Below are positions 16,874-33,415 of a stretch of DNA of 49,182 nt, piece after piece. The position numbers and the translations under genes are program-made. The notes under the pieces were generated by a model that did no database searches, was not told the DNA's origin, and saw nothing but the letters and a program-made list of their open reading frames with translations. Source of the stretch: an uncultured Bacilli bacterium (lineage in GTDB: Bacteria; Bacillota_I; Bacilli_A; RF39; UBA660); NCBI GenBank assembly GCA_947585595.1, contig CANPXB010000009.1, forward strand, positions 1 through 49,182, in the 5' to 3' direction. Position 1 is the first letter of the stretch; the number at the start of each line of letters is the position of its first letter.

Positions 16874-19800
16874 TTAAGATTGACCACCTACAGTAACAGT
16901 TATTTCAGTAGAACTTAATGGACCATCTTCTGGATAATTATAATCATATACTTCAAATTTAACTTTATATGTTCCTTCTTCACTAAATTTGAAATCATAT
17001 TTCTTTTTAACTTGACCATCCTCATCTTTTTCCTCACAAGCACCATCTATATTAGCAAGCTCGCAAGCACTACCAGGTTTAAGTCTAAATCCTTTAGAAG
17101 TTGGTAATGTTAATTTACCACTTGTATCATTTTGTGATGTTTCACTAGATAGGAATGGTAATATAGTATTAACTTCATTAAGTCTTGCTTCAACTTTACC
17201 TTGTTCACTTAAAGTATGATTATCTTTAGTAATAGTAGTAACTATTTTAACTTTAGTTCCATTGTGATTATTAGGACTTATCTTTAACTCAATAGTTTTC
17301 CATTCATCCTTTTTAACATCAGAAATACTATCTTCAGTTATCTTCATTTCTGGATTGCTTTGAGTCCAAGTTGCTACCAACAACATATCACTATTAACTT
17401 TAATCTTAACCTTTGTTTTATCATCTGGTTCTTGTTTTTCAGTGCTAACTTCTTCTCCATCTTTATCAACCCAACCAGCAAATGTATATCCATCTTTTAC
17501 TGGATTTGGAATTTCAACTACAGATCCTTCTTTATATTTAGTCGAAGTCAATGAAGATTGATCATCACTGAACTTACCACCATCTAAATAGATTTCAATT
17601 TGATAATCTTTTTTCCACTTAGCAACTAAAATCATATTATTTGATACAGTAACTTTAACACTATTTTCTTCATCAGCACTTGTAGTAGAAATATCCTTAC
17701 CAGTTTCATCTACCCATTTATCAAAGGTATATCCATCTTTCGTTGGATTAGGAACAGTTATTTGTTCATCTTTAGTTGCAGTTGTTTCTGGAGTCTTATC
17801 AGGAACACCCTTAAATTCTCCACCATCCAAGTAATAAGTAATAGTAAATTTAACTTCTTCAGCAACAGCATATAATTTAACAAGACCTTGAGATTCAGAA
17901 GTAAGATTCTTAACTGTAATTCCATCGCTTAAATAAATACTATTATTGTTACTCTTTTCACCATAACTTAATGACCAACCACGTAATTTTTCTTTTTTTG
18001 TTTCAAAGTAATCATCGTGTTTTTCTAACTCACAGTTTGTATCATATGTACAAGTTTTGTCCTTACCCTCTAGTTTTTGATATCCTTCATCTGGAGCTCC
18101 AGATGACATTAAAGCAAGTTGTACTGCTGAAACATCTTTTGGTTCATAGAACTCAACAGTATAAGTATTTGCTTTCCACTTAGCATATAACGTTAAATCG
18201 TTAAGATCTTCAGAACCAGCTCCTTCATTTTCTAAAAATTCTTTAATCTTAGCAGTAGTTCCTTTACAATTTGTAGATTTTTGTTCATCAGAGCACCAAC
18301 CTTCGAATGTATAACCGACTTTTACAGGTGTTGGAAGTTGAGTTTCAATAGTTTTTCTACCATATTTATCAATCGCCTCAGTTGGGAACTGACCGCCATC
18401 TAAATTATAAGTAATAGTATACATTGGTTCATTCTTGGCATTCCATTGAGCAGTTAAAGCAACAGTATCAGTTTTAAAATCAATACCCTTATAATCTTTA
18501 TTTTCAGAATATAAGTATCCATCTGAATCGGCCCAACCAGCAAAGATATAATCGTCTCTATCTGGAGCGTCAGCTAATGTACAACCAGATTCAAATTTAC
18601 ATTCTGTACTTTGAGGATTAACTAAATCAGCTAACATTGTCGCATAAGCTCTACTGTTAGTTCTAGAATCAGTCAATTCTGGATATTGATCCAAATTCAA
18701 ATCATAAGTTATTGTATATTCTTTTTCTTTCCATTGTGCTGTTAAAGTTATTGCTTCTAACTTATCGCCATCAACAGATAAAGTATATTTTCCTTCATGA
18801 TCACCACCAGGAGCATTTACAGTTCCACCACTTTCAGGGCTTGTTACATTCCAACCAGTAAATGTATAACCTGTTCTACTTGGAACAAATAATTCGATTT
18901 TATCTTTAGTTAAAATATTATATGATGATTTTATAACTGTTTGATTTTCATAAGTACCACCATTTAAATTATATGTAATATCGTATAAAACAGGTGTCCA
19001 TACAGCATATAAAGTAATATTGTATTCATCACCTAACATATCGGCCATTGAGTCTTCAGCTTCAAAGTGAGTTCCTTTTTCACCTGTTTCATCTTTAACA
19101 GTCGACCAACCATCAAATTTATAACCTTTTCTTGTTTCACTTAGAGTTGGTAACTTACAATTACTTTCTTCAGGACTTGCTAATTGTTCGATTGTACAAG
19201 TCTGTTCACCAATTTGTTCTGTAGGACTTTCCAAGCCATTTAAATCAAATGTAATTTTATACTTAATTAAATCATAATAAGGAGCTAAATCAACACTTTC
19301 AGAAATTGTTTGACTAAAATCATAGCAAGAACTACGATCTTCGTTTACTGCATCACTTTTAACCCAACAAACAAATTCATAACCTTTTTTTGTTTTAGGA
19401 GTTGGAATATCAGCAGCTGCAATTTTTTCTCCATTTACAATTGAAACAGTTTTACTATCTTGTTCTCCAGTTATACCAGTAAATTTAACAGCGAATCTTG
19501 TAGCATCACAATCTGGATCTTGAACTTGTTCACCATTAACATGCGTAATACAAATTAAACCATTAACATTAGCAGGTACTTCATCTTCACCAGAGATAGC
19601 ATCAATCCACCAACCTTCTGGATACTCATCTTCATCATCAGCATCCTCTTTATCTAAAAGTTTTTGGTAGATTATAGCATCATCCCCAACTACAGTTTGC
19701 GTCGCATCCATAATTAATCGCGTACTAGCTTTAGTTGGATCGGTAATTAAATGCGTACCTATTATCAAAGCATTTTCAGGTACTACTTCTTCACCATTTT

Positions 19801-19900
19801 GAGACTCGTCATTGTTTAATGCATAGGTTTCAGCATGAACATAACCAATAAAGCCAAAGAATAAATAAATTACTAAGAATGTTTTAATTATTTTTTTCAT
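16874..19900 (-). CDS. Large secreted InlB-B-repeat protein, copy 1 (1008 aa)
   Basis: Signal peptide (MKKIIKTFLVIYLFFGFIGY, cut after HA), then an N-terminal region of ~170 residues without repeats, then about eight InlB B-type repeats (pattern Y-x-I-T-Y/F-x-L-x-GG ... GYTFxGW ... ITLYAxW) up to about residue 850, and a C-terminal Ig-like region. No LPXTG or membrane anchor. Start at 19900 because GGAG lies seven bases upstream; the longer frame has none. The N-terminal ~300 residues are almost the same as in the next gene, so this is a tandem duplicate. Confidence 0.85.
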   Translation of the reverse strand: MKKIIKTFLVIYLFFGFIGYVHAETYALNNDESQNGEEVVPENALIIGTHLITDPTKASTRLIMDATQTVVGDDAIIYQKLLDKEDADDEDEYPEGWWIDAISGEDEVPANVNGLICITHVNGEQVQDPDCDATRFAVKFTGITGEQDSKTVSIVNGEKIAAADIPTPKTKKGYEFVCWVKSDAVNEDRSSCYDFSQTISESVDLAPYYDLIKYKITFDLNGLESPTEQIGEQTCTIEQLASPEESNCKLPTLSETRKGYKFDGWSTVKDETGEKGTHFEAEDSMADMLGDEYNITLYAVWTPVLYDITYNLNGGTYENQTVIKSSYNILTKDKIELFVPSRTGYTFTGWNVTSPESGGTVNAPGGDHEGKYTLSVDGDKLEAITLTAQWKEKEYTITYDLNLDQYPELTDSRTNSRAYATMLADLVNPQSTECKFESGCTLADAPDRDDYIFAGWADSDGYLYSENKDYKGIDFKTDTVALTAQWNAKNEPMYTITYNLDGGQFPTEAIDKYGRKTIETQLPTPVKVGYTFEGWCSDEQKSTNCKGTTAKIKEFLENEGAGSEDLNDLTLYAKWKANTYTVEFYEPKDVSAVQLALMSSGAPDEGYQKLEGKDKTCTYDTNCELEKHDDYFETKKEKLRGWSLSYGEKSNNNSIYLSDGITVKNLTSESQGLVKLYAVAEEVKFTITYYLDGGEFKGVPDKTPETTATKDEQITVPNPTKDGYTFDKWVDETGKDISTTSADEENSVKVTVSNNMILVAKWKKDYQIEIYLDGGKFSDDQSSLTSTKYKEGSVVEIPNPVKDGYTFAGWVDKDGEEVSTEKQEPDDKTKVKIKVNSDMLLVATWTQSNPEMKITEDSISDVKKDEWKTIELKISPNNHNGTKVKIVTTITKDNHTLSEQGKVEARLNEVNTILPFLSSETSQNDTSGKLTLPTSKGFRLKPGSACELANIDGACEEKDEDGQVKKKYDFKFSEEGTYKVKFEVYDYNYPEDGPLSSTEITVTVGGQS

Positions 19901-19932
19901 ACGACCACTCCATATCTTATCCATCATAATAT

Positions 19933-19941
19933 ATTATATCA
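19933..19941 (-). promoter_or_regulatory. Extended -10 promoter of InlB-repeat gene copy 1
   Basis: TGATATAAT on the minus strand 32 bases before the start codon; related in sequence to the promoter at 16804-16812. Confidence 0.6.
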
Positions 19942-19951
19942 AAATTATATC

Positions 19952-19991
19952 AAGAAAAAAAGATTAATCTCATCATCAAAGAGATTAACCT
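19952..19991 (-). terminator. Terminator after InlB-repeat gene copy 2
   Basis: Stem AGGTTAATCTC / GAGATTAATCT then a T run; near-identical to the one at 16824-16862. Confidence 0.85.
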
Positions 19992-19998
19992 TTAATTA

Positions 19999-22947
19999 TT
20001 ATGAACTTCCTTTTTGTAATGGAACAGTTACTGAACCACTAGCAGATACAGCTGTTACCTCATATGAAGCATATACTTTATTTTCATCATTGTAATCAAC
20101 TAATTCCACTTTAATATAATATGTCTCAGGTTGTTTAACAAGAATAGAAAGATACTTTCCAAGTTTTTCTTCTAATATAATACCTTCTTCAGGAGATATA
20201 ATTACTGTACCATCTTTAAAATCTTGTTTTAAAGTAGCAAGAAGTTCTTTTTCTTGACCAGGAACTTGATCTCCATATGAGACTTCTACGTCGGTATTAG
20301 AAGCATCTGATTTTTGACTACCTTTTTTAATTGTTAACTTAAGTTTAGTTCTAAAACCTTTACGATTATTTGATTTAACATCTATTTTATATTTATATAA
20401 TATTTGATTATTAGCAGTCGTAGACCTTTCTAAAGACAATTTCAATTCTGGATTATTTTGTTGCCACTTCGCAATCAAGAATAAATCTTTATTAATAATA
20501 ATAGTAGTCTTATCTTTAGATTCTGGTTTAGATTTTTTCTCAGGAACACTATTTCCTTCGTCATCTACCCAACCTATGAATGTATATCCTTCTTTTGTTG
20601 GATTAGGTATTTCAATACTACTTCCGTCTTTATATTTTTTATTAGTTAAAGTAGTTTGTCCTTCACTGAACCTACCACCATCTAAGTAAATATTTAATGA
20701 CCATTCAACATCCTTTTTCCACTTAGCAACTAAAACCATATCAGAGGTAACACTTACATCTTGATTTTCTTTATCAATTTTTTCTTCAGCTAGTGAATTA
20801 TTTCCCAATTTGTACCAACCATCAAATGTATATCCTTCTCTTTCACTTAGTTCAGGAAGTTTTAATTTTTCACCATCAGTATATTCAGTTTTAACTTCTT
20901 TTTCAGTTTGGAAGCTTCCACCTTCAGGATAATAAGTAACATGATACTTAATATCCGCAGTAACAGCATAAAGTTTAACAGTTCTCCTAGAAATACTAGT
21001 TACATTTATAACAGAAATATTATCGCTAAAATAACTTTGATAATAATTGCCAACTACATATTCAGATAAAGACCAACCTAATAGTTTTTTATGTTTATTT
21101 TTAAAATACTCGCTATGATCACCTAAAGGGCATGGTTTATCATAAGTACAAGTAACAGTATTAATAACTTCATCTCTACTTAAAAAGCCACCAACTATTG
21201 AATTAAATGTAACAAATTGAACATCATAAGTTATAGCTTCCCATTTAGCATAAAGTGTAATATCTTTAGGCGTCTTTTCTTGGCCAAGAGCATCATTTAT
21301 AGTATTAATACCCGTACATTGTGTTCTTGCTTCATCAGTACACCAACCTTTGAAAGTATAACCAACTCTTGTAGGTTTAGGAAGTTGAGTACCAGTAGTT
21401 TTACTACCATAAGTACTAACAGGAGTTAAATTAAAACTACCTCCTCTTAAATCATAAGTTATATTATATACAGGTTCATTTTTAGAGAACCATACAGCTT
21501 CTAATTCTACTGTTGATTTATCGTCACCGAAATCAACACCTCTATAATCTCCACTAGCAGAGAATAAATAGCCATCATCATTCTGCCATCCACCAAATAA
21601 GAAGTTTTCATCCTCAGGAGCAGCTGCTAAAGTACATTCAGATTTAAACTTGCAAGTTGTATTAGCAGGATTTTGTAAATTAGCAAGCATAGTAGCATAT
21701 ACTCTACTATTGGCATTTGCATTAACTTGTTGTAAAGATTCCGTATTAACTTCATATGTAATAGTATATTCTTTTTCTTTCCATTGAGCTGTTAAAGTTA
21801 ATGCTTGTAAAGATTCTCCAACAGATAATTTATATTTACCTTCATTTTCTTCAGGACCAGTAATATTTCCACCACTTTCAGAAGGATTAGTTATTTTCCA
21901 GCCAGCAAATGTATAACCAGTTCTAGAAGGAGTAAATAATTCTATATTATCTTTAGTTAAAATTGTATAAGAAGATTTTAATGTTGTTTGATCTTCATAT
22001 GTTCCACCATCTAAGTTATATGTTATTTCATAAGTTTCAGGTGTCCATACAGCATATAAAGTAATATTGTATTCATCACCTAGCATATCAGCCATTGAAG
22101 AATTTGCTTCAAAGTGTGTACCTGTTTCACCGGTTTCATCTTTAACCGTTGACCAGCCATCAAATTTATAACCTTTTCTTGTTTCGTGAAGTTCAGGTAA
22201 TGTACAATTGCTGTCTTCAGGGCTAGCTAGTTCTTCAATTGTACAAGTTTGATCACTTACTTGTTGGGAAGAACTATCTAAACCATTCAAGTCAAATTTT
22301 ATTTTATATTTAATTAAATCATAATAAGGATCTAATTCTACATTTGCTGAAATTGTTTTACTAAAATCGTAACACGAATCATGAGTTTCATTTTTAGTTC
22401 CTTTAACTACCCAGCAAACAAATTCATATCCTTTTTTTGTTTTTGGTGTTGGAATATCAGCAGATGCTATTTTCTCACCATTTTTTATATAAACTGTTTT
22501 TTCTCCCTCTTCACCAGTAATACCACTAAACTTAACACTAAATCTTGTAGCATCACAATCAGGGTCCTCTACCTCATCCCCATTTAAGTGAGTAATACAA
22601 ATCAAGCCTTCAACATTAGATGGAACCATATCGTCGCCTGAGATAGCATTAATCCACCATCCTTCAGGGTATTCTTCTTCATCATCAGCTTCTTCTTTAT
22701 CTAATATTTTTTGAAAGATAATAGCATCATCACCAACGATTGTTTGTGTGGCATCCATTATTAATTGAGTACTAGCTTTTGAAGAATCGGTAATTAAGTG
22801 TGTTCCAATAACTAAAGCATTATCTGGAACAACTGGTTCTCCATTTTGTGCCTCATCTTCGTTAAGAGCATAAGTTTCTGCATAAACATAACCAATAAAA
22901 CCAAAGAATAAATAAATTATTAAAAATGTTTTAATTATTTTTTTCAT
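19999..22947 (-). CDS. Large secreted InlB-B-repeat protein, copy 2 (982 aa)
   Basis: Same plan as copy 1: signal peptide (MKKIIKTFLIIYLFFGFIGY ... YAETYALNEDEA), non-repeat head, about eight InlB-B repeats, and a different C-terminal tail (VSASGSVTVPLQ). The open frame runs further upstream, but AGGGATGG just ahead of 22947 and alignment to copy 1 place the start there. It begins 10 bases after the end of the third family member, so these two form an operon. Bacterial InlB-B repeats are small beta folds in surface adhesins; the ligand is unknown. Confidence 0.85.
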   Translation of the reverse strand: MKKIIKTFLIIYLFFGFIGYVYAETYALNEDEAQNGEPVVPDNALVIGTHLITDSSKASTQLIMDATQTIVGDDAIIFQKILDKEEADDEEEYPEGWWINAISGDDMVPSNVEGLICITHLNGDEVEDPDCDATRFSVKFSGITGEEGEKTVYIKNGEKIASADIPTPKTKKGYEFVCWVVKGTKNETHDSCYDFSKTISANVELDPYYDLIKYKIKFDLNGLDSSSQQVSDQTCTIEELASPEDSNCTLPELHETRKGYKFDGWSTVKDETGETGTHFEANSSMADMLGDEYNITLYAVWTPETYEITYNLDGGTYEDQTTLKSSYTILTKDNIELFTPSRTGYTFAGWKITNPSESGGNITGPEENEGKYKLSVGESLQALTLTAQWKEKEYTITYEVNTESLQQVNANANSRVYATMLANLQNPANTTCKFKSECTLAAAPEDENFLFGGWQNDDGYLFSASGDYRGVDFGDDKSTVELEAVWFSKNEPVYNITYDLRGGSFNLTPVSTYGSKTTGTQLPKPTRVGYTFKGWCTDEARTQCTGINTINDALGQEKTPKDITLYAKWEAITYDVQFVTFNSIVGGFLSRDEVINTVTCTYDKPCPLGDHSEYFKNKHKKLLGWSLSEYVVGNYYQSYFSDNISVINVTSISRRTVKLYAVTADIKYHVTYYPEGGSFQTEKEVKTEYTDGEKLKLPELSEREGYTFDGWYKLGNNSLAEEKIDKENQDVSVTSDMVLVAKWKKDVEWSLNIYLDGGRFSEGQTTLTNKKYKDGSSIEIPNPTKEGYTFIGWVDDEGNSVPEKKSKPESKDKTTIIINKDLFLIAKWQQNNPELKLSLERSTTANNQILYKYKIDVKSNNRKGFRTKLKLTIKKGSQKSDASNTDVEVSYGDQVPGQEKELLATLKQDFKDGTVIISPEEGIILEEKLGKYLSILVKQPETYYIKVELVDYNDENKVYASYEVTAVSASGSVTVPLQKGSS

Positions 22948-22957
22948 ACAGCCATCC

Positions 22958-24241
22958 CTAACTACCATCATTAACAGTTGATGCTTTTTCACAATTTTGC
23001 GAACCGCTCGATTCACAAACACTTATACCATTCTTTTTAGCTTGGGCTTTATATTGACCAGTAGTTATGCTTGAGCCATTTTTATAATATGTTTTTCCTA
23101 TGGTAATTCCAGCGGTGCTAGGAAGATATCCACCACCAGAAAGCGAAATATTCAAAATACAGTTTACACCAGCTCCACCTACGCCATTATCTTGTGGAGG
23201 ACAACTTACAGTTATTGAAGATTTAGAATATTGTGCATAAAAATCCATTGATTGATTTATTGTTGTACTATTAACATTTGTTCCACCAGTTTGTGAAGTG
23301 AACCAACCATTGAACTTATAGAAAGCTCTATTAGGTCCGGCTGGAGCACTAGCTTTTTTACCACCATCTACATTAATTGTACTAATAACACTTCTACCAT
23401 CATAACTTAAGAATCTTACAGCATATTTTCTTGCTGGTGTAGGTATTGCTTTCCAAGAAGCATATAATGTTATATTTGAATTAACTTTAGAATTAAAGTT
23501 ATAAGCTTTACCTTTAGCTGAATTTAATAACCAACCATTAAATGTATAACCACTTCTTGCTGGATTAGCAGGTCTAGTAACTTTACCACCAGCTTTAACT
23601 GTTTGTGATGCTATTGAACCAGTACCACCATTTAAATTAAATTTAACTGTATAAGTTTTATTAGGATCACTTGGTTCAGTAGGCCCTGTAGGTTCTTCTG
23701 GTTCTTCAACCTTAACCTCAACCCATTGAGCTACTAAATTAACATTATCATTAAGTGGTTGATTAAAATCAAATAAATTACCATTTAAATACCAACCTAC
23801 AAATTCATATCCATCTCTAGTAGGTGACACAGGTTCAACTGGTATCTTACCAGCTTCTAATATAATATTTCCTATTGTTGTACCACCTGCTGAATCAAAA
23901 GTAATTGTATAATAAGTTATTTCTGGATCTATCTTTTTCCAAGCAGCTTTTAAAGTAATATCCTCACTAACTTCTTCACTGAAGTCATATAGTTCATCAC
24001 CAAGCATCCATCCTACAAATTCATATCCATCTCTAGTCGGAGTATCAGGCATAGATATTAATTTACCATCTTCTATCTCTAAAGCATTAAGTACACTACC
24101 ACCATCAGTATCAAAGATAACTTTATATTTGTCTAAAACTTGTTCTTCTTTAGGACTTATACAAAATAAAGCCACTATAATCGCACATAAAACAAAGGTT
24201 AATGTATTAAGAACTATAGTTTTCTTCTTTCTATCATTCAT
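22958..24241 (-). CDS. Membrane-anchored InlB-B-repeat protein (427 aa)
   Basis: A basic head and one membrane helix (about 8-28) are followed by four InlB-B repeats (about 38-105, 110-175, 195-265, 270-335), a Pro/Glu linker between the second and third, and a Cys-containing C-terminal domain (CPPQDN ... NCILNIS ... SVCESSGSQNC) that could form disulfides. No cleavage site is obvious, so it may stay anchored at its N-terminus. First gene of the operon with repeat-protein copy 2. Confidence 0.8.
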   Translation of the reverse strand: MNDRKKKTIVLNTLTFVLCAIIVALFCISPKEEQVLDKYKVIFDTDGGSVLNALEIEDGKLISMPDTPTRDGYEFVGWMLGDELYDFSEEVSEDITLKAAWKKIDPEITYYTITFDSAGGTTIGNIILEAGKIPVEPVSPTRDGYEFVGWYLNGNLFDFNQPLNDNVNLVAQWVEVKVEEPEEPTGPTEPSDPNKTYTVKFNLNGGTGSIASQTVKAGGKVTRPANPARSGYTFNGWLLNSAKGKAYNFNSKVNSNITLYASWKAIPTPARKYAVRFLSYDGRSVISTINVDGGKKASAPAGPNRAFYKFNGWFTSQTGGTNVNSTTINQSMDFYAQYSKSSITVSCPPQDNGVGGAGVNCILNISLSGGGYLPSTAGITIGKTYYKNGSSITTGQYKAQAKKNGISVCESSGSQNCEKASTVNDGS

Positions 24242-25811: not shown

Positions 25812-25841
25812 TCAAAAAAAAAGACTATCTACTAGTCTTTT
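25812..25841 (-). terminator. Terminator of the giant sigma-like gene
   Basis: Stem AAAAGACTA / TAGTCTTTT, then a run of T on the minus strand, overlapping the TAG stop. Confidence 0.8.
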
Positions 25842-28800
25842 CTCAATAATAGTTCTTGATTATCTAAACTTAATAATTTTCTATCTAAAGTATCTAATAG
25901 TTTAAAAACATGATTTGTTTCTTTACCACTCATAAAGTCTCTTTCTCTTATGCCATATAAAGCCATTAATTCATCTCTTGTACTTTTCTTTAAATCTTTA
26001 CCATATTTTTTAATAAGTCCTAATACCTCATCATAATTAGCTGTACTAAAATCAAATGCATCAGGATATATATCTTTTATTAAATCATTAATTATATTAT
26101 ATGATAATTTTTCTGATAAACCATTTATATTACGACTATTAGTTATTCTATTAAAATATCTTAAGTAATATTGTCTATGTAAATAAGACATTTTCATATG
26201 ATTCTTTAAGTAATAACTATATACATCTTCTAATGAAAATGTCTGTTCTTTTAATATTCCATCTTTTAATTTACATACACTAAGCATTAAATTACTTATT
26301 ACTCGATTAATAGCTGATACTTGTAAATCTAAATTAAGTTCTTTAATTATCTCTGGGGCCCCTTTTCTTTCCTCCCCATTCATCCCAAATGCTAAATTAA
26401 ATATTTTAATAGCTGTATCTAAATCACCATAAAATGGTAAATCAGGATTATTAATTGCTTCTAAGTAATAATCAAAATCAAATACTTTAGTTTTATCTAT
26501 ATTATTACTTAATTCAAATAGATTAATTTTTATTCTATCCATTGTACTAACTACCTGACTAAAACTAATCTTACATTTCTTAGCTATCTCTTCATAAGAT
26601 AAACCATTCTTATAATAATCTTCTAGTTTTATTCTATCACTAATCCCAAAGTATTTAAGTAATGGTAATATATCTGTATCATAATCTATCTTACCATCTA
26701 TCTCTTTATTTAAATATTTATATATACTAACTATTGCTCTTTGATATCTTCTTCTAATACTTCCTTTATTATCATTAAATATCTTAGGTAATTCATTTAA
26801 ATCTTTATAAGGATATCCTTTAAGTTCAAATAAGTAACATATTATTTCTTTTTCTTTATCACTTATTGGTAAATGTTTATCATCTAGTAATTTATTTAAT
26901 TGAGTGCGTTCTATATAAAGTAATTCTGGTTTTAAGATACCAATCTTTCTACTCTTAATCTTTTTCATTACTACTGTATATTTATGCCAATAACTAGCTT
27001 TAGTTAAATGTAATTTCTTACATAATTCATTAAAGTCTAATTTAGTTCCATCTAGATTATATTTATTCTTATATCCAATATAGTAACTTATAAATATTTT
27101 TTCATCTTCTGTTAAAACAGATTCACTAATATGTCTATCTATTTCAGTAATTATTTCTTCTTCATTTATTTTAACATCTTTAATTAAATAACTAGTATAT
27201 AAGTTATTAAAATGACTTAATGCTCTTTTAACTATCTCAATATCTATATTTAAATAACTAGCTATATCATCTGGCATCATACCTTCAATATAACGACATA
27301 TAACTATTCTAACTTCATCTTTATTTATATTATTTTTATAGACACTTAAAAACTCTTTTAACTTAGTTTTATTTATATCTAATATCTCAGTAATCCCAAA
27401 ACGATAATTATCCATCTTTCTTATTGCATCAGTAATTATATTAGATATTCTAGTTTTACTAAGGTTTGTTCTTTTACTTATTTCTTCATAAGATAAATCT
27501 TGTAAAATAAACATTTCTAAGATATCTCTTGTTTCTTTAACAAAATAGTATTTCGGATTTGTAATATATTTTTTATAATTCTTTTTATCAATTGTAATTC
27601 GATAATTAGTAATTCCACTATATAGTTTAATAGCAAAGTTTCTGGCATCACGACATAAATCATGTGCTTTTATATAATCTATTCCTAAAGAGGTAGCTAT
27701 CTCACTAATTGTATATACTTCTTTACCAACTCCATAATACATATCTAGAATTATTAATCTCATTGGGGAGAATTGATCACTATATTTCTTTTTAACTTCC
27801 TCATACATTTCTTTGGTAAATGTATTATCAAAGAATCTCAAGATATGATAATAACTTCTTTCTAAACGATCAATTAAGAAGTAATAGCGATATCTTAAAC
27901 TAGAATTAGGATACTTTAAATCAAATTCTTTTTTATCTTTCTTACCAAAGTAATAACTTTCTAAAAATAATTGTTGTTCATCAGTAAATTCATACTTTAT
28001 CTTTAAGTATTCTTTATATAATTTATCATTAGGTACTTTCATATCTTGATGTTTAAAACCAAAGACAGTTGTATTAATATCTATAATTAATTCTTCTTCA
28101 CTTATACCCTTTTTTTCCTTTATTCCATAATATCTTTCTAGTAATTTTAATTCATCACTATTAAGTTCATAATTAGTTTTCTTAAATAAACTAAGTATCT
28201 CATCTAAACTTAAATTACTATATCTTTCTGTTAAATCTTGATAATTTATTTCTTTAACTTTACTCTTTATATCAATACTAAAAAGTTGTGTTCCATAACT
28301 TTTAATAATTGATTTACGATATTCTGAAAATCTCTTTTTATCTTTAAATTTACTATCAAACTTTTTAGCAATACTTTGATAAGCATCTTTTATCTCTTTA
28401 ACAGTAAAACCTAGTTCTAAAGCCATCTCTTCATAATTATAACGATATTTACCAAAGACATTTAAGTATAATACTTTATCTTCTATATATGATAAATTAT
28501 CTCTAATATATAAGTATTCAATTATCTTATTAGGATCTAATGGCTCTGTTTTAATTCTATGTACTTTATTTCCTTCTTTTAAAGCTATTGCACTATAAGC
28601 TTCCCCTACTTTTTTACTATCCCTCATCATATAAGGTTTTAATTTTTTTAAAACCTTACTCTCTATCTGTCTTATTCTTTCTCTTGTTATATTAAAATAA
28701 GAAGCAACATGTTCTAAAGTTAAATTTTCTCCACTTAATACTCTATGATATAAAATAAAGTATTGTAATGGTTTTAATATATCTTTTAAAACAATTAATA

Positions 28801-29464
28801 AACTATTATTAACCATTTGATTTAAGATATCATCATATCCATTATCACTACTAGGTATAAAATTACTTAACTCTGTATCTCCATCATCACTAACTTTTTG
28901 ATCAATACTAACTGGACTTTGTTGAATAGCATCTCTAATATTTTTTAAAGTTTCTTTAGTTATCTTTAGTTTCTCACATATCTCTTCATCACTTAAATTT
29001 ATATTATTGTTAAGATTCTTTTCCATTAATCTTTTATAGCGTCTTATTCCTTCAACAAGATGCACTGGTTTTCTAATAACTGACTCTTTATCAGCAATTG
29101 ATCTAGTAATTGCTTGTTTTATCCACCAAACCGCATAAGTTGAAAAAGCTCCTATTGAAGGATCATAATCTTCAACTGCTCTCATTAAACCTAAATTACC
29201 TTCTTGGATGATATCTAAGATATGTAAATTTTTTATTACTTCACGATAATGATTAGCAACACTAACTACTAATCTTAAATTACTATTAATAAGTAATTCT
29301 CTAGCTTTTAAATCCCCCTTTTTATATTTATAAGCAAGACTCTTTTGTTCTTCACTTGACAAAATAGGATATTTAGAAATATCTTTCATATACATTTTAA
29401 AGGCATCATCACTAAATGTATCTACTAACTCATCATCTGTTAAAATCTCTATCTCGTCATCCAT
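25832..29464 (-). CDS. Giant sigma-70-family protein with a long tandem helix-turn-helix extension (1210 aa)
   Basis: Residues 20-285 are a complete sigma-70: region 1.2 (DDAFKMYMKDISKYPILSSE), region 2 (NLRLVVSVANHYRE, LDIIQEGNLGLMRAVEDYD, FSTYAVWWIKQAITRSI), region 3, and region 4 with TLEHVASYFNITRERIRQIE (about 249-268). Primary sigma factors end shortly after this point. Here about 930 more residues follow, made of some ten segments with the region-4 pattern, for example YNYEEMALELGFTVKEIKDA (343), YTISEIATSLGIDYIKAHDL (584), LSYEEISKRTNLSKTRISNI (657), MPDDIASYLNIDIEIVKRAL (730) and LSYEEIAKKCKISFSQVVST (955). Start at 29464 because AGGTG precedes it at 6 bases. No dnaG neighbour, so whether it is the housekeeping sigma is open. 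Confidence 0.85.
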   Translation of the reverse strand: MDDEIEILTDDELVDTFSDDAFKMYMKDISKYPILSSEEQKSLAYKYKKGDLKARELLINSNLRLVVSVANHYREVIKNLHILDIIQEGNLGLMRAVEDYDPSIGAFSTYAVWWIKQAITRSIADKESVIRKPVHLVEGIRRYKRLMEKNLNNNINLSDEEICEKLKITKETLKNIRDAIQQSPVSIDQKVSDDGDTELSNFIPSSDNGYDDILNQMVNNSLLIVLKDILKPLQYFILYHRVLSGENLTLEHVASYFNITRERIRQIESKVLKKLKPYMMRDSKKVGEAYSAIALKEGNKVHRIKTEPLDPNKIIEYLYIRDNLSYIEDKVLYLNVFGKYRYNYEEMALELGFTVKEIKDAYQSIAKKFDSKFKDKKRFSEYRKSIIKSYGTQLFSIDIKSKVKEINYQDLTERYSNLSLDEILSLFKKTNYELNSDELKLLERYYGIKEKKGISEEELIIDINTTVFGFKHQDMKVPNDKLYKEYLKIKYEFTDEQQLFLESYYFGKKDKKEFDLKYPNSSLRYRYYFLIDRLERSYYHILRFFDNTFTKEMYEEVKKKYSDQFSPMRLIILDMYYGVGKEVYTISEIATSLGIDYIKAHDLCRDARNFAIKLYSGITNYRITIDKKNYKKYITNPKYYFVKETRDILEMFILQDLSYEEISKRTNLSKTRISNIITDAIRKMDNYRFGITEILDINKTKLKEFLSVYKNNINKDEVRIVICRYIEGMMPDDIASYLNIDIEIVKRALSHFNNLYTSYLIKDVKINEEEIITEIDRHISESVLTEDEKIFISYYIGYKNKYNLDGTKLDFNELCKKLHLTKASYWHKYTVVMKKIKSRKIGILKPELLYIERTQLNKLLDDKHLPISDKEKEIICYLFELKGYPYKDLNELPKIFNDNKGSIRRRYQRAIVSIYKYLNKEIDGKIDYDTDILPLLKYFGISDRIKLEDYYKNGLSYEEIAKKCKISFSQVVSTMDRIKINLFELSNNIDKTKVFDFDYYLEAINNPDLPFYGDLDTAIKIFNLAFGMNGEERKGAPEIIKELNLDLQVSAINRVISNLMLSVCKLKDGILKEQTFSLEDVYSYYLKNHMKMSYLHRQYYLRYFNRITNSRNINGLSEKLSYNIINDLIKDIYPDAFDFSTANYDEVLGLIKKYGKDLKKSTRDELMALYGIRERDFMSGKETNHVFKLLDTLDRKLLSLDNQELLLRKD

Positions 29465-29482: not shown

Positions 29483-29488
29483 ATTATA
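29483..29488 (-). promoter_or_regulatory. -10 box of the giant sigma-like gene
   Basis: TATAAT on the minus strand 19 bases before the start codon; no clear -35, so the leader would be very short. Confidence 0.4.
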
Positions 29489-29526: not shown

Positions 29527-30415
29527 AATTGTGTCACTACTGGTGGCACAATTTAATTTGTCGCGCCAACGGACCGACAATTTCATAAATTGGTAATAAA
29601 CCAAACAAAAATGAGCAAAAAAAGATTCAAACACAGAAATTTTCAACAGTTTTAGTTTTCAATCCTAATTGTCGCACCAATGGCGCGACAATTTCAAAAT
29701 ATGTCATTCATTCAACAAACTTTAATAACGATAAATGCTTTAATTCAAAGCCTTCATCAGTAAAAACACATTAAAAGACAAGCCTTAAAAATCTATCATC
29801 GAGTGGAAAATTAATTAATTGTGTCACCGTCGGTGGCACAATTTAAATTGTCGCGCCAATGGACCGACAATTTAAAACACGATTTTTAATGACATTAAAC
29901 ATAATAATTACAGTCAATTTAAGATAGTAAAACTATAAAAGTAAACATAATTATGAAGTTTTTCAATTATTTTAGTAGTTTAACTTAATTGTCGCGCCAA
30001 TGGTGCGACAATTTCATAATGCATTCCTCATTTCATGAATTTTAATACTGACAAATACCATATTTAAAGCTAATTCATTAATAATTAAGCATTAAAAATG
30101 GAGCAACAAAAGGCAAAGCAAGGAATGGAATCAATCTTAATTGTGTCACCAATAGTGACACAATTTAAATTGTCGGTCCATTGGCACGACAATTTAAATA
30201 TACCTCTAATAATATAATATATTTACAAATTATACTTTACTTTATTAAGTTTAATTTTTAATAACAAAAACATTAATCCTAAATAGTTCAATAATAGTAA
30301 ATAAATTAAAAATCAAAAAAAGAAGCCCAATTTGGGCAAATCTTCAGATTTAAATAAATTAAAAATATAAAATTTAATGTTCAAACTAAATTGTCGCTCC
30401 ATTGGCGCGACAATT
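29527..30415. repeat. Array of ~27-bp palindromes in alternating doublets and singlets
   Basis: Nine palindromes with outer arms AATTGTCG / CGACAATT or AATTGTGTCAC / GTGNCACAATT: doublet 29527-29553 + 29555-29583; singlet 29667-29693; doublet 29817-29843 + 29846-29872; singlet 29987-30013; doublet 30139-30165 + 30168-30194; singlet 30389-30415. In each doublet the first member is the GTGTCAC class and the second the GTCG class, 1-2 bases apart. The ~85-195-base spacers are AT-rich without ORFs; those after the first two singlets look distantly related to each other. No gene is visible in this ~900-base stretch. Confidence 0.9.
30314..30337 (-). terminator. Terminator of the YhcG-type nuclease gene
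   Basis: Stem GCCCAA / TTGGGC followed on the minus strand by CTTCTTTTTTT. Confidence 0.8.
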
Positions 30416-31440
30416 TATATTTTTTCATTTTCTTCTACCATAATAGATATTTCATTTAATTTGTTTTCTAATATTTTTTTATCTATCAAATTCAATTTGT
30501 ATTTTGCAACCATTGTTGGGGACATAGTTCTACTCATTGAGTACTCTACTATTTTTTCGTCTTTATCAGCACATAATATTATTCCTACACTCGGATTCTC
30601 ATTATTTTTTCTTTCTTGTCTATCTAGTGCTTCTAAATAAAAATCCATTTTAGAAACATATTCAGGCATAAACTTTCCAACCTTCAATTCAAAAGCCACT
30701 AAACAAGATAAATCGCGATTATAAAATAAAAGATCAATAAAGAAATCCTCATCTCCTACTTGTACTCTATATTCTTCTCCAACAAAAGTAAAAGACTTTC
30801 CTATTTCTAAAATAAAATTTTTTAGATTTTTTATAATTGCTTTTCTTAAGTCACTCTCAGAATATTCATTTGGTAAATCTAAAAATTCTAACGAATACAA
30901 ATCAAGTAATTTAGTATTAGGAAAATCACCTTCATCAATTGTTTTTGTCGTTGATTGTAATGCCTTCCCATTCGATAGCATGTATCTTTCATAATAGGCG
31001 CTAGAAAATTGTCTATTTAGTTCGGCTTTAGAATAATTATTTTTAATAGCCATTTTAATATAAAATTCTCTTTCTTCTCTAGTTTTTGATCTTGCCATAA
31101 TCAAAATATTATTAGTCCAACTTAATTGTCGCGCCAATGGTGCGACAATTTCATCATCTTTATACAATTCATAAAATTGTTTCATTCTATATATTCCACT
31201 TCGATCAAATCCTTTTAAAGTCGGATATTTTTGTTTTAAAAACAAAGCTAAACTACCAACGACTTTACTACCCCACCTATGACTTTCTAATTGTCTACTA
31301 ACAAAACATCCTATATCCCAATACAAAGCTATCAATTCTTCATTTACTTTTCTATAAGCATTATATCTTCTGGTTTCTATCATTTCGATAATTTTTGAAA
31401 AGTCATCATAATATTCGTCGTTTTTTACTAGATCATTCAT
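30415..31440 (-). CDS. YhcG/DUF1016-family PD-(D/E)XK nuclease
   Basis: A 341-residue protein with the DUF1016 N-terminal domain (about 10-150: ALYWDIGCFVSRQ, WGSKVVGSLALFLK, GFDRSGIYRMKQFYELY, LSWTNNILIM) and a C-terminal PD-(D/E)XK nuclease (about 175-330) with FFIDLLFYNRDL and VAFELKVGKF. Start at 31440 (GGAG six bases upstream). Bases 31124-31150 of the gene are a palindrome of the neighbouring array, coding for EIVAPLARQL in the conserved part of the N-terminal domain. A second palindrome touches the stop codon. Cellular role of the family is poorly known; defence or mobile-DNA processing is likely. Confidence 0.9.
   Translation of the reverse strand: MNDLVKNDEYYDDFSKIIEMIETRRYNAYRKVNEELIALYWDIGCFVSRQLESHRWGSKVVGSLALFLKQKYPTLKGFDRSGIYRMKQFYELYKDDEIVAPLARQLSWTNNILIMARSKTREEREFYIKMAIKNNYSKAELNRQFSSAYYERYMLSNGKALQSTTKTIDEGDFPNTKLLDLYSLEFLDLPNEYSESDLRKAIIKNLKNFILEIGKSFTFVGEEYRVQVGDEDFFIDLLFYNRDLSCLVAFELKVGKFMPEYVSKMDFYLEALDRQERKNNENPSVGIILCADKDEKIVEYSMSRTMSPTMVAKYKLNLIDKKILENKLNEISIMVEENEKI
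31124..31150. repeat. Palindrome inside the YhcG-type coding sequence
   Basis: Arms AATTGTCGCGCC / GGTGCGACAATT. With its flanks it is identical to the intergenic copy at 29987-30013 over 36 bases (from AACTT to TTCAT). Confidence 0.95.
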
Positions 31441-31523
31441 CATATTCTCCTTTCTTTTAATATTTTTTCAAAATGCATATTATAACTAATAATTGTATCA
31501 TTTTTGAGTAAATACATTTTAAA

Positions 31524-31548
31524 TTAAAAGCACTTAATAATAAGTGCC
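31524..31548 (-). terminator. Hairpin terminator at the edge of toxin-like module 1
   Basis: GCACTTA / TAAGTGC stem with TTTT on the minus strand, equivalent in position and form to the hairpins ending the small RNAs at 32046 and 32428. It would end an RNA antisense to the leader of module 1. Confidence 0.55.
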
Positions 31549-31628
31549 AAAAATTAATGGAGATATAATTTATTAAATGTACCTTCTACCAATTTATAAT
31601 TTCTGATTATATAATAGAAGGTGATTAT

Positions 31629-31679
31629 ATGAAACTATATAAACTTAATTTTTCATTTTTACAAAAATGGAATATATAA
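31629..31679 (+). CDS. Tiny leader ORF of toxin-like module 1 (16 aa)
   Basis: MKLYKLNFSFLQKWNI, preceded by AGAAGGTG. Its counterpart in module 2 (32321) has the same length and 10 of 16 residues the same. The ribosome-binding site pairs perfectly with an upstream 8-mer (ACCTTCTA / TAGAAGGT), suggesting a masked start. Its end overlaps the start of the next small ORF by 13 bases. Confidence 0.5.
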   Translation: MKLYKLNFSFLQKWNI

Positions 31680-31810
31680 ATAGTATAGTTCTACTATTAA
31701 TTATATTATTGCTACTAATAGTATTAAATTTATTTTTCTCTAAGAAACCTCACGATTCCTTGTTCTTGCTTCACTGGAGTCTCCTCCTCCACAAGCCTAA
31801 CTTCCGATGA
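31667..31810 (+). pseudogene. Membrane-peptide ORF of module 1, 3' part replaced by an omega-RNA element
   Basis: Starts MEYINSIVLLLIILLLLIVL, almost all hydrophobic, matching the 23-residue peptide of module 2. After about residue 25 the frame runs into the inserted element at 31741 and gains a foreign 22-residue tail before TGA. Probably an interrupted type I toxin-like gene. Confidence 0.5.
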
Positions 31811-31823
31811 TCATCACCGTACA
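31741..31823 (-). ncRNA. Orphan omega-RNA / IS605-type right end without tnpB
   Basis: 83 bases matching 47636-47718, downstream of tnpB, at 76 of 83 positions. The minus strand has the same stem TGGAG / CTCCA around GAGGAGA, and ends in GTGAGGTTTCTTA, where the guide would begin. No tnpB copy adjoins it. A sigma-A promoter at 31873-31901 points into it. Confidence 0.6.
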
Positions 31824-31872
31824 TTGTTCTTCTTTTTTTTAATTTTTTAAAACAAATTATATCTCTAAGAAA

Positions 31873-31901
31873 ATTATACAATACCCGTATCATAAATGCA
31901 A
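31873..31901 (-). promoter_or_regulatory. Promoter reading into the orphan omega-RNA
   Basis: TTGCAT (31896-31901), 17-base spacer, TATAAT (31873-31878). Same sequence context as the promoter at 32140-32168, so originally the promoter of the module's antisense RNA. Confidence 0.7.
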
Positions 31902-31947
31902 CATAAAATTTTAAAAACTTTTAAATTTAATTTTAATATTTTATCTT

Positions 31948-31975
31948 AATTGTCTCACCAATAGTGAGACAAATT
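31948..31975. repeat. Isolated palindrome of the array family
   Basis: AATTGTCTCAC / GTGAGACAAATT around CAATA. A variant of the palindromes at 29.5-30.4 kb, about 800 bases past the coding-sequence copy. Confidence 0.85.
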
Positions 31976-32006
31976 CATAAGTTGTTTTTTACAAGTAATA
32001 CATCAT

Positions 32007-32035
32007 TGAAAAAAGCCCAATCAGGGCCATTTTCA
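32007..32035. terminator. Hairpin terminator, possibly bidirectional
   Basis: GCCC / GGGC stem extended by TGAAAA / TTTTCA arms. Its gene is not obvious; may end transcription between the two modules. Confidence 0.6.
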
Positions 32036-32045
32036 ATAAAACAAT

Positions 32046-32133
32046 TAAAAAAAACACCTATATAATAAGTGTAACCCAAAAGGAGATACATTTATTATAA
32101 GAGATACATCTATAAGGAATAGATTATACCTCT
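32046..32133 (-). ncRNA. Predicted small RNA a of the toxin-like module
   Basis: From the promoter at 32140-32168 a ~90-base RNA would end at the hairpin ACACTTAT / ATAGGTGT (32054-32072) with eight T. Its 5' part forms a stem (TATAATCTAT / ATAGATGTA). It is closely related to the RNA at 32428-32501, supporting both. Confidence 0.6.
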
Positions 32134-32139
32134 AAAATG

Positions 32140-32168
32140 ATTATACTATAATAGTATCATAATTGCAA
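32140..32168 (-). promoter_or_regulatory. Promoter of small RNA a
   Basis: TTGCAA (32163-32168), 17-base spacer, TATAAT (32140-32145). Confidence 0.75.
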
Positions 32169-32320
32169 CATACTTTTTAAAAAAATTTATTGCGTCAAGA
32201 AAGTGTCTTATAGTATCTTTTAAGCTGCATATATGATACAACGAATTTAGAGATATAATTTATTAGGTGTACCTCCTAACAATAAATAATTTTCATTTAT
32301 ATAGTAGAGGAGATGGTAAT

Positions 32321-32371
32321 ATGACACTATATAAATTTAATATTTCATTTTTAAAAAGATGGAATATATAA
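32321..32371 (+). CDS. Tiny leader ORF of toxin-like module 2 (16 aa)
   Basis: MTLYKFNISFLKRWNI behind AGAGGAGATGG. Upstream, ACCTCCTA can pair with the ribosome-binding site; module 1 has the matching changes on both sides (CTTC with GAAG instead of CTCC with GGAG), a hint that the pairing matters. Overlaps the next ORF by 13 bases, suggesting translational coupling. Confidence 0.5.
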   Translation: MTLYKFNISFLKRWNI

Positions 32372-32430
32372 GTAATATAGTTCTAATATTAATTATATTA
32401 TTGTTGTTAATAACAACAATAAAGAATTAA
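32359..32430 (+). CDS. Small membrane peptide, type I toxin-like (23 aa)
   Basis: MEYISNIVLILIILLLLI followed by TTIKN: one membrane-spanning helix with a short basic end, like Ibs, Hok/Fst-type toxins in size and character but not matched to any by sequence. It starts inside the leader ORF. Its 3' end meets an opposite-strand small RNA (32428-32501). The leader/toxin overlap resembles mok/hok. Confidence 0.5.
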   Translation: MEYISNIVLILIILLLLITTIKN

Positions 32431-32501
32431 AAACACCTATTATATAGGTGTATCATCAACAGGAGATACATCTATCGACAATAGATTATATCTCTTTTTC
32501 T
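32428..32501 (-). ncRNA. Predicted small RNA b, convergent with the membrane-peptide gene
   Basis: Promoter at 32508-32537; RNA starts near 32501, forms a stem (AGAGATATAATCTAT / ATAGATGTATCTC), and ends at ACACCTATATAATAGGTGT with TTTTT. Homologous to small RNA a. Candidate antitoxin RNA. Confidence 0.6.
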
Positions 32502-32551: not shown

Positions 32552-33415
32552 TTATAAACTTTTCTTGATCTTATCTAGTTCTTCTTCAAAGATATCTTTA
32601 TTACTAGTTCCATAAATACTTAAAGTATTTAACATATCTAAAGTAGTTATTTCATGATTTAATACTTTTCTAATTAAACCCAGAACTAAGTTTTGATCTT
32701 CTAAATAAATATGATAAAGAATTAAAGCATAGTAGAAACTATTTAAATATTGACCTGTTCTTGTTGCATATAATTTATATAAATCTTTTTCTCTAAATTC
32801 ATTTTTAGCCATCTGACGTGCTGTCATATATTGTCTTTTTAAATCACTCATTAAATACATTCTTGCATTAAGCCATATTTTATATATTTCAGGATAGCTT
32901 TTTTTCGTTATTACTAATTCATAGAATAAAGGAATAACATCCCCTATTCTTTGACCATTTATATATTCGGGATAATTAGTTTCTTTTAAAGAGTGAATAT
33001 GTTCATGTCCAAGAAATATTGGTGCTAACTCAGAAATACGCATTGGAACTTTATAATGATGAACAGCTCCTGATTCCGGTATTACTTTTTGACTCTTTTC
33101 ATCAACAGAATAAATTATATAAGAAGTATAACTTAAATGACCACTAAAATATGGTACACAATCTGTTGCTTTTATTAAACTAGCTATTTTAGTTGCATAA
33201 TCTTCACCAAATATTTTAATATCTCCATAACTTAAATCAAGAGCTGATTGTAATTGATAAGTTTTTAAAGCCATATTAGCATTAGCTTTATAACCAATTA
33301 ATTTATTTGCAACAAAACTAGTTACTTCATTATCAGTACCAGTAAAGAGTTTAATCCCTAAAAAATCAAAAGTTCTTTTCTCTCGTAAAAGTTGTTGCTT
33401 TTTCACACTATCCAT
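32552..33415 (-). CDS. Possible zinc metallopeptidase (HEHIH motif), 287 aa
   Basis: No family recognised with certainty. Residues 137-141 read HEHIH, which fits HExxH, and a Glu at 166 (IPLFYELV) is at the distance of the third ligand in gluzincins such as M3 peptidases. No signal peptide or membrane helix, so it would act in the cytoplasm. AGGGGG precedes the start. Single-gene unit with its own promoter, ahead of the palindrome/toxin region. Confidence 0.55.
   Translation of the reverse strand: MDSVKKQQLLREKRTFDFLGIKLFTGTDNEVTSFVANKLIGYKANANMALKTYQLQSALDLSYGDIKIFGEDYATKIASLIKATDCVPYFSGHLSYTSYIIYSVDEKSQKVIPESGAVHHYKVPMRISELAPIFLGHEHIHSLKETNYPEYINGQRIGDVIPLFYELVITKKSYPEIYKIWLNARMYLMSDLKRQYMTARQMAKNEFREKDLYKLYATRTGQYLNSFYYALILYHIYLEDQNLVLGLIRKVLNHEITTLDMLNTLSIYGTSNKDIFEEELDKIKKSL

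Follow-up and report, generated by a model that had tools for sequence, protein, structure and literature searches.

The window, that is, the whole 49,182-nucleotide stretch of contig CANPXB010000009.1 that was analysed, carries on its minus strand a gene for a giant sigma factor of 1210 amino acids (25832..29464). The reading frame starts with an ATG at 29464, ends with a stop codon at 25832 and has no internal stop, and relatives of the protein are equal in length. A putative −10 element, TATAAT (29483..29488, minus strand), is located about 19 bp 5′ of the start codon. At this distance TATAATA is kept in all five of the same-genus loci, suggesting that the giant sigma gene has its own promoter. 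Gene order around the locus is fixed within the genus: rplU/L27, obgE, a gene for a 287-residue protein, the giant sigma gene, an FAD oxidoreductase gene, and genes for InlB-type surface proteins. Elsewhere, in two further genera (three genomes), the giant sigma gene follows mnmG-rsmG-parB. The gene is chromosomal and not mobile, and no relative of its extension was found in the phages, plasmids or viral contigs searched.

The neighbouring genes were also inspected. The 287-residue protein (32552-33415), encoded just upstream of the giant sigma gene, syntenic across much of the genus and fast-evolving, had no match in Pfam, NCBIfam or PADLOC. On the other side, three genes for surface proteins with InlB B-repeats (List_Bact_rpt, Flg_new; 16874-24241) adjoin the giant sigma gene. 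The genome encodes about seven surface proteins with InlB-type repeats, and similar genes lie beside giant or short sigma genes in other genera (L107, L110 and L114). These adjacent genes were considered as targets of the giant sigma factor and set aside, as their conserved promoter is an ordinary TTTACA-17-TATAAT with no specific link to it.

Between the giant sigma gene and the next gene upstream, at 29527-31974, a 27-bp imperfect palindrome, AATTGTCGCRCCAATGGYGCGACAATT, is present eleven times, and these are all its copies in the genome. They are placed around and inside a gene for a DUF1016/YhcG nuclease (30415-31443, minus strand), assigned by PADLOC to the candidate defence family PDC-S02, with one copy inside the open reading frame, where it encodes IVAPLARQL. 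Upstream of the same gene lie further direct and inverted repeats (AGATTATAYCTCTA, ACACCTATATAATAGGTGT and GAGATACATCTAT; 31851-32495), which form a second group. In same-genus relatives the giant sigma gene directly follows the 287-residue gene, with no insert, while three other genomes have single palindrome copies, each at a DUF1016 gene. Although they looked well suited to a protein with many helix-turn-helix units, we rejected the palindromes as binding sites of the giant sigma factor, since relatives have the sigma gene without them and the copies occur at DUF1016 genes. Judged by this distribution, the palindrome array belongs to the inserted DUF1016 nuclease gene, and it may be where the nuclease itself acts or is controlled.

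The N-terminal part of the giant protein has the layout of a standard sigma factor. Pfam domains Sigma70_r1_2, r2, r3 and r4 matched over cut-off and in this order within residues 20-276. Regions 1.2 and 2 (residues 20-126; 29087..29407, minus strand) contain an intact WWIKQAIT, which reads the −10 element. They are followed on the same strand by region 3 (residues 155-207; 28844..29002) and by the factor's own region 4, here U0 (residues 225-279; 28628..28792), detected by Pfam and by profile and with an intact TRERIRQIE. These motifs correspond to WWIRQAIT and TRERIRQIE in the RpoD of the same genome. Positions reading −10 and −35 are RpoD-like in the window genome and its nearest relatives, and are eroded in some other relatives. 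By its domain content, the giant protein is a member of the sigma-70 family.

The initial annotation had described the first 285 or so residues as a complete sigma-70, which the Pfam matches bear out, and had raised the possibility of another rpoD in the genome. A standard RpoD of 364 residues is indeed encoded on contig C16, and the genome has three more sigma-70 proteins, whose frames of 234-270 codons fit sporulation sigma factors in size. The giant protein is therefore an additional sigma factor. Its identification as the genome's only primary sigma factor was rejected on account of this RpoD, and as RpoD itself on account of scores below the equivalog cut-offs (211.6 of 572 for NF006666 and 202.5 of 354 for TIGR02393).

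After the sigma core, the protein continues for about 925 residues, and past residue 290 Pfam reported additional significant stretches of Sigma70_r4 and Sigma70_r4_2. Repeats were sought by profile-against-profile comparison, in which windows of an alignment of 26 homologues were matched to a sigma4 profile for which the genomes' own standard RpoD-type sigma factors were used. Within the extension, seven windows scored 20.6-36.5, with maxima of 16.0 among 576 column-shuffled controls and 12.4 among reversed ones. Against a profile of the units themselves, with the tested unit left out, the seven scored 31-45 (shuffled maximum 12.4). By these comparisons at least seven extra sigma4 units are certain, starting near residues 317, 557, 631, 705, 777, 860 and 931. 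They are U1 (residues 317-370; 28355..28516), the sole extra unit of the short forms described below; U5 (557-615; 27620..27796); U6 (631-688; 27401..27574), which has the most conserved helix-turn-helix; U7 (705-759; 27188..27352); U8 (777-839; 26948..27136); U9 (860-917; 26714..26887); and U10 (931-984; 26513..26674), all on the minus strand.

Three more sigma4-like units are probable, with scores of 17-21 against the unit profile at residues ~400-447, ~486-522 and ~1019-1050; they are graded only as probable because one reversed control reached 20.8. These are, again on the minus strand, U2 (~400-447; 28124..28267; score 17.3, shuffled maximum 9.5), found among relatives in G145 only, U3 (~486-522; 27899..28009; 21.1, shuffled maximum 8.8), and U11 (~1019-1049; 26318..26410; 20.5, shuffled maximum 10.3), found in five relatives. 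Sites near 1085-1140 and 1150-1205 did not rise above control in the profile comparison. Unit starts are spaced 71-92 residues apart, except over 370-557, where two of the weaker candidates are located. When each member was left out of the profile in turn, most units recurred in the same order in distant relatives, which have six to ten sigma4-type domains per protein, counting the native region 4. The array comprises at least seven, and probably about ten, further region-4-type helix-turn-helix domains.

The architecture read by the initial annotation, a full sigma-70 followed by roughly seven to ten region-4-like units, is upheld by Pfam and the profiles. In detail, of its approximately ten extra units, those near 343, 584, 657, 730, 810, 890 and 955 exceed the controls, those near 440, 500 and 1037 are only probable, and the one suggested near 1110 is at control level.

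The fold of the units is consistent with this reading. An AlphaFold model of residues 548-695, spanning U5 and U6 and built from two sequences, reached a pLDDT of 84 and has four helices per unit. In VIA-align, this model matched the YlxM-like structure 1xsv (Z 9.9), region 4 of SigF (Z 8.3), region 4 of T. aquaticus (Z 8.2; 1.7 A across 60 residues) and many other sigma factors; Z values of 8-10 are not proof by themselves for small helical domains, and they agree with the sequence profiles. The Foldseek matches of the model were mostly sigma factors, none of them below E 0.001. When the extension profile was compared with the PDB, the best matches were nearly all sigma factors or sigma4-like UPF0122/YlxM proteins. 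A four-helix fold superposing on sigma4 is thus predicted by model for U5 and U6, and by profile only for U1 and U7-U10. A model of residues 225-1210 (986 residues) had two input sequences only, the window protein and L039, and with a pLDDT of 38 was left out of these fold assignments. The concern that residues 290-1210 might not be helix-turn-helix units at all is answered by U5 and U6, which are sigma4 folds in the confident model.

The units differ in how well their DNA-facing surface is conserved. In U5, U6 and U9, the DNA-facing helix positions are about as conserved as in the native region 4, while the corresponding positions show little conservation in U1, U7, U8 and U10; it is therefore not necessary that all units read DNA. 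A net positive charge is found on the reading helices of U6-U10 and on the extension as a whole, with U1 and U6 barely charged overall. Comparison with the protein of G005 (66% identical) gave a dN/dS of about 0.34 in core and extension alike; nearby, the values were 0.08 for obgE and about 0.55 for the 287-residue neighbour. The giant sigma factor is under purifying selection, yet evolves fast. Four relatives (G001, G294a, G107 and G119) keep the array and have lost residues reading −10 or −35. This retention of the array while the −10 and −35 readers decay suggests that what is conserved may be something other than sigma activity.

The same architecture, which the initial annotation had proposed to seek in RF39-like genomes, recurs in related genomes: a full-length sigma core with an array was found in 16 proteins from 15 genomes and eight genera of one family, counting the family sample and additional relatives, and it is present there on top of the ordinary rpoD. 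Nearly all of these proteins have 1174-1228 residues (1092 in G107), and a seventeenth long form, in G001 (1115 residues), has lost much of sigma2 and sigma3. Within the family sample of 386 genomes, matches to the extension, short forms among them, occurred in 24 genomes and in 16 of the 150 genera. No array was found outside the family in the ~390-genome samples of class and phylum, a search that scored two candidates per genome only, so that copies may be undercounted. It returned three weak, short matches (E 1e-5 to 1e-7; 60-125 positions), which we read as single sigma4-like proteins and not as arrays.

The array also occurs without sigma2 and sigma3, in tandem in one relative and alone in another, which is new. 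G007 has several such arrays, each beginning at region 4, arranged head to tail with gaps of 50-70 bp. They form tandem genes at loci L042 (contig C61) and L043 (contig C113) that encode 753-1008 residues, and the last member of the L042 row is a sigma-containing protein cut by the contig end. G391 encodes a single array of 978 residues. The occurrence of arrays without sigma2 and sigma3 in these two genomes implies that the array can act alone. Sigma and array are in separate frames in G089 and G123, in the latter at least partly through decay. Also new are short forms of 394-427 residues, which consist of the sigma core and U1 only and nest repeatedly among the long forms: a tree of the core places them in at least four positions within a clade that as a whole has 87% support. 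Given this nesting, repeated loss of the array is a simpler explanation than repeated gain. As judged from these gene structures, the array is a separable module.

Also in the same family is another set of large sigma proteins (438-1196 residues), more distantly related. Their C-terminal part had one to three weak extra sigma4-like matches (14-18 bits; G014, G028 and G033), with reversed controls at or below 11.5. The giants of this second class (L046, L047, L048, L049, L050, L051 and L052; 696-1196 residues), mostly from other genera of the family, have N-terminal extensions of about 100-250 residues and C-terminal ones of 250-750, and are in tandem in G021.

Known systems resemble the giant sigma factor in part. 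With RpoD/SigA and the group 2 sigma-70 factors it shares regions 1.2, 2, 3 and 4 and RpoD-type −10 and −35 readers, but it has about 925 residues of additional sigma4 units and coexists with a normal rpoD. Extended ECF factors, which are small and bear SnoaL, TPR or cysteine-rich extensions of up to ~200 residues (PMC8999054), likewise have a long stretch after region 4, whereas the giant factor has an RpoD-type core and repeats of its own region 4. Its assignment as an ECF factor with a regulatory extension was rejected, since it has regions 1.2 and 3 and an ECF core consists of sigma2 and sigma4 only. YlxM/UPF0122 is a free-standing sigma4-like helix-turn-helix, and the best match of the units in structure and sequence (1xsv); unlike the giant factor, it is a single small protein (~106-113 residues in solved chains) without sigma2, sigma3 or an array. 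MzaA, the oversized sigma-70 protein of the MZA anti-phage system, resembles it in the sigma core only, but has that core at the C-terminus and shows no similarity to the array. An assignment as MzaA was rejected (201.8 of 800 bits for NF041931).

We propose that the giant protein works as an alternative sigma factor and that its array tethers the holoenzyme to several DNA sites, probably upstream, a reading to which we give a probability of roughly 0.45. The tether reading is favoured because the sigma core is complete and the certain extra units all have the sigma4-type helix-turn-helix fold, whose usual role is DNA binding. Under this model, RNA polymerase would be bound by the core, which would read a −10/−35 promoter near the RpoD consensus, while the array, serving as a multivalent activator or tether within the same protein, would grip several DNA sites, most likely on the upstream side of the promoter. 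Promoters with several upstream elements would thereby be selected. The array-only paralogues without sigma2 and sigma3 would not serve as sigma factors and would instead compete or help at the same DNA. A DNA target for the array was not found, the palindrome array nearby being assigned to the DUF1016 gene. A more specific version, which we regard as rather doubtful, is that one sigma factor reads a series of upstream elements through at least eight diverged copies of region 4, modulated by array-only paralogues, so that region 4 would be a modular DNA-reading repeat. The roles suggested in the initial annotation (contact with a long upstream stretch of DNA, bridging of polymerases, holding of promoters) would leave the array-only relatives unexplained.

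The array might instead be a regulatory extension that contacts its own sigma2 and sigma4, or another protein, with the units as scaffold and not as DNA readers. C-terminal extensions of the non-canonical sigma factors ECF41, ECF42 and ECF238 do act in this way (PMC8999054), DNA-facing positions are variable in several units, and the repeated nesting of U1-only short forms among long ones is what a removable regulator predicts. We nevertheless consider this unlikely: known regulatory extensions have other folds (SnoaL, TPR, cysteine-rich, WD40), a mere switch made of seven or more copies of a DNA-binding fold would be costly, and array-only paralogues could control a sigma domain only in trans, since they lack one themselves. 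The beta flap is another usual partner of region 4. Hence the units could bind RNA polymerase and not DNA, one protein bridging several polymerases or competing with RpoD. Sigma4 has a flap-binding face, and paralogues without sigma2 and sigma3 would be natural competitors; several units, however, keep conserved, positively charged reading helices, and binding to polymerase seems quite improbable.

Less probable again is a protein that organises or silences DNA, fused to or grown from a sigma factor, the sigma part being a relic. The array is kept where the sigma core is eroded or missing (G001, G294a, G007 and G391) and the extension is net positive, as such a protein would have it, but the core is intact and under purifying selection in the window genome and its nearest relatives, and the short forms go the opposite way, keeping the core and losing the array. 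Lastly, two joined genes or a decayed gene could mimic a giant protein, and the genome bin has an estimated contamination of 6%. An artefact of assembly or prediction has a negligible probability and is refuted by recurrence: the frame is one continuous ORF with a dN/dS of 0.34 and conserved synteny in the genus, and equal length, architecture and unit order recur in 16 independently assembled proteins from eight genera. Tethering of the holoenzyme to DNA through the array is the explanation that we prefer.

Few bacterial proteins are as well studied as sigma factors, and a single sigma2 with a single sigma4 is regarded as their fixed core plan. To our knowledge, the −35-reading domain is present only once in known sigma factors, and the open-access literature searched yielded no account of one in which region 4 is repeated. 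A conserved sigma factor with at least seven added sigma4 domains, accompanied by array-only paralogues, shows that the plan is open to enlargement through extra copies of region 4. Such repetition suggests that this sigma factor holds on to DNA or polymerase at numerous points, and the protein offers a direct test of whether region 4 serves as a repeated DNA-reading unit. It also illustrates the way in which transcription control is diversified in a gut lineage that is uncultured and has small genomes.
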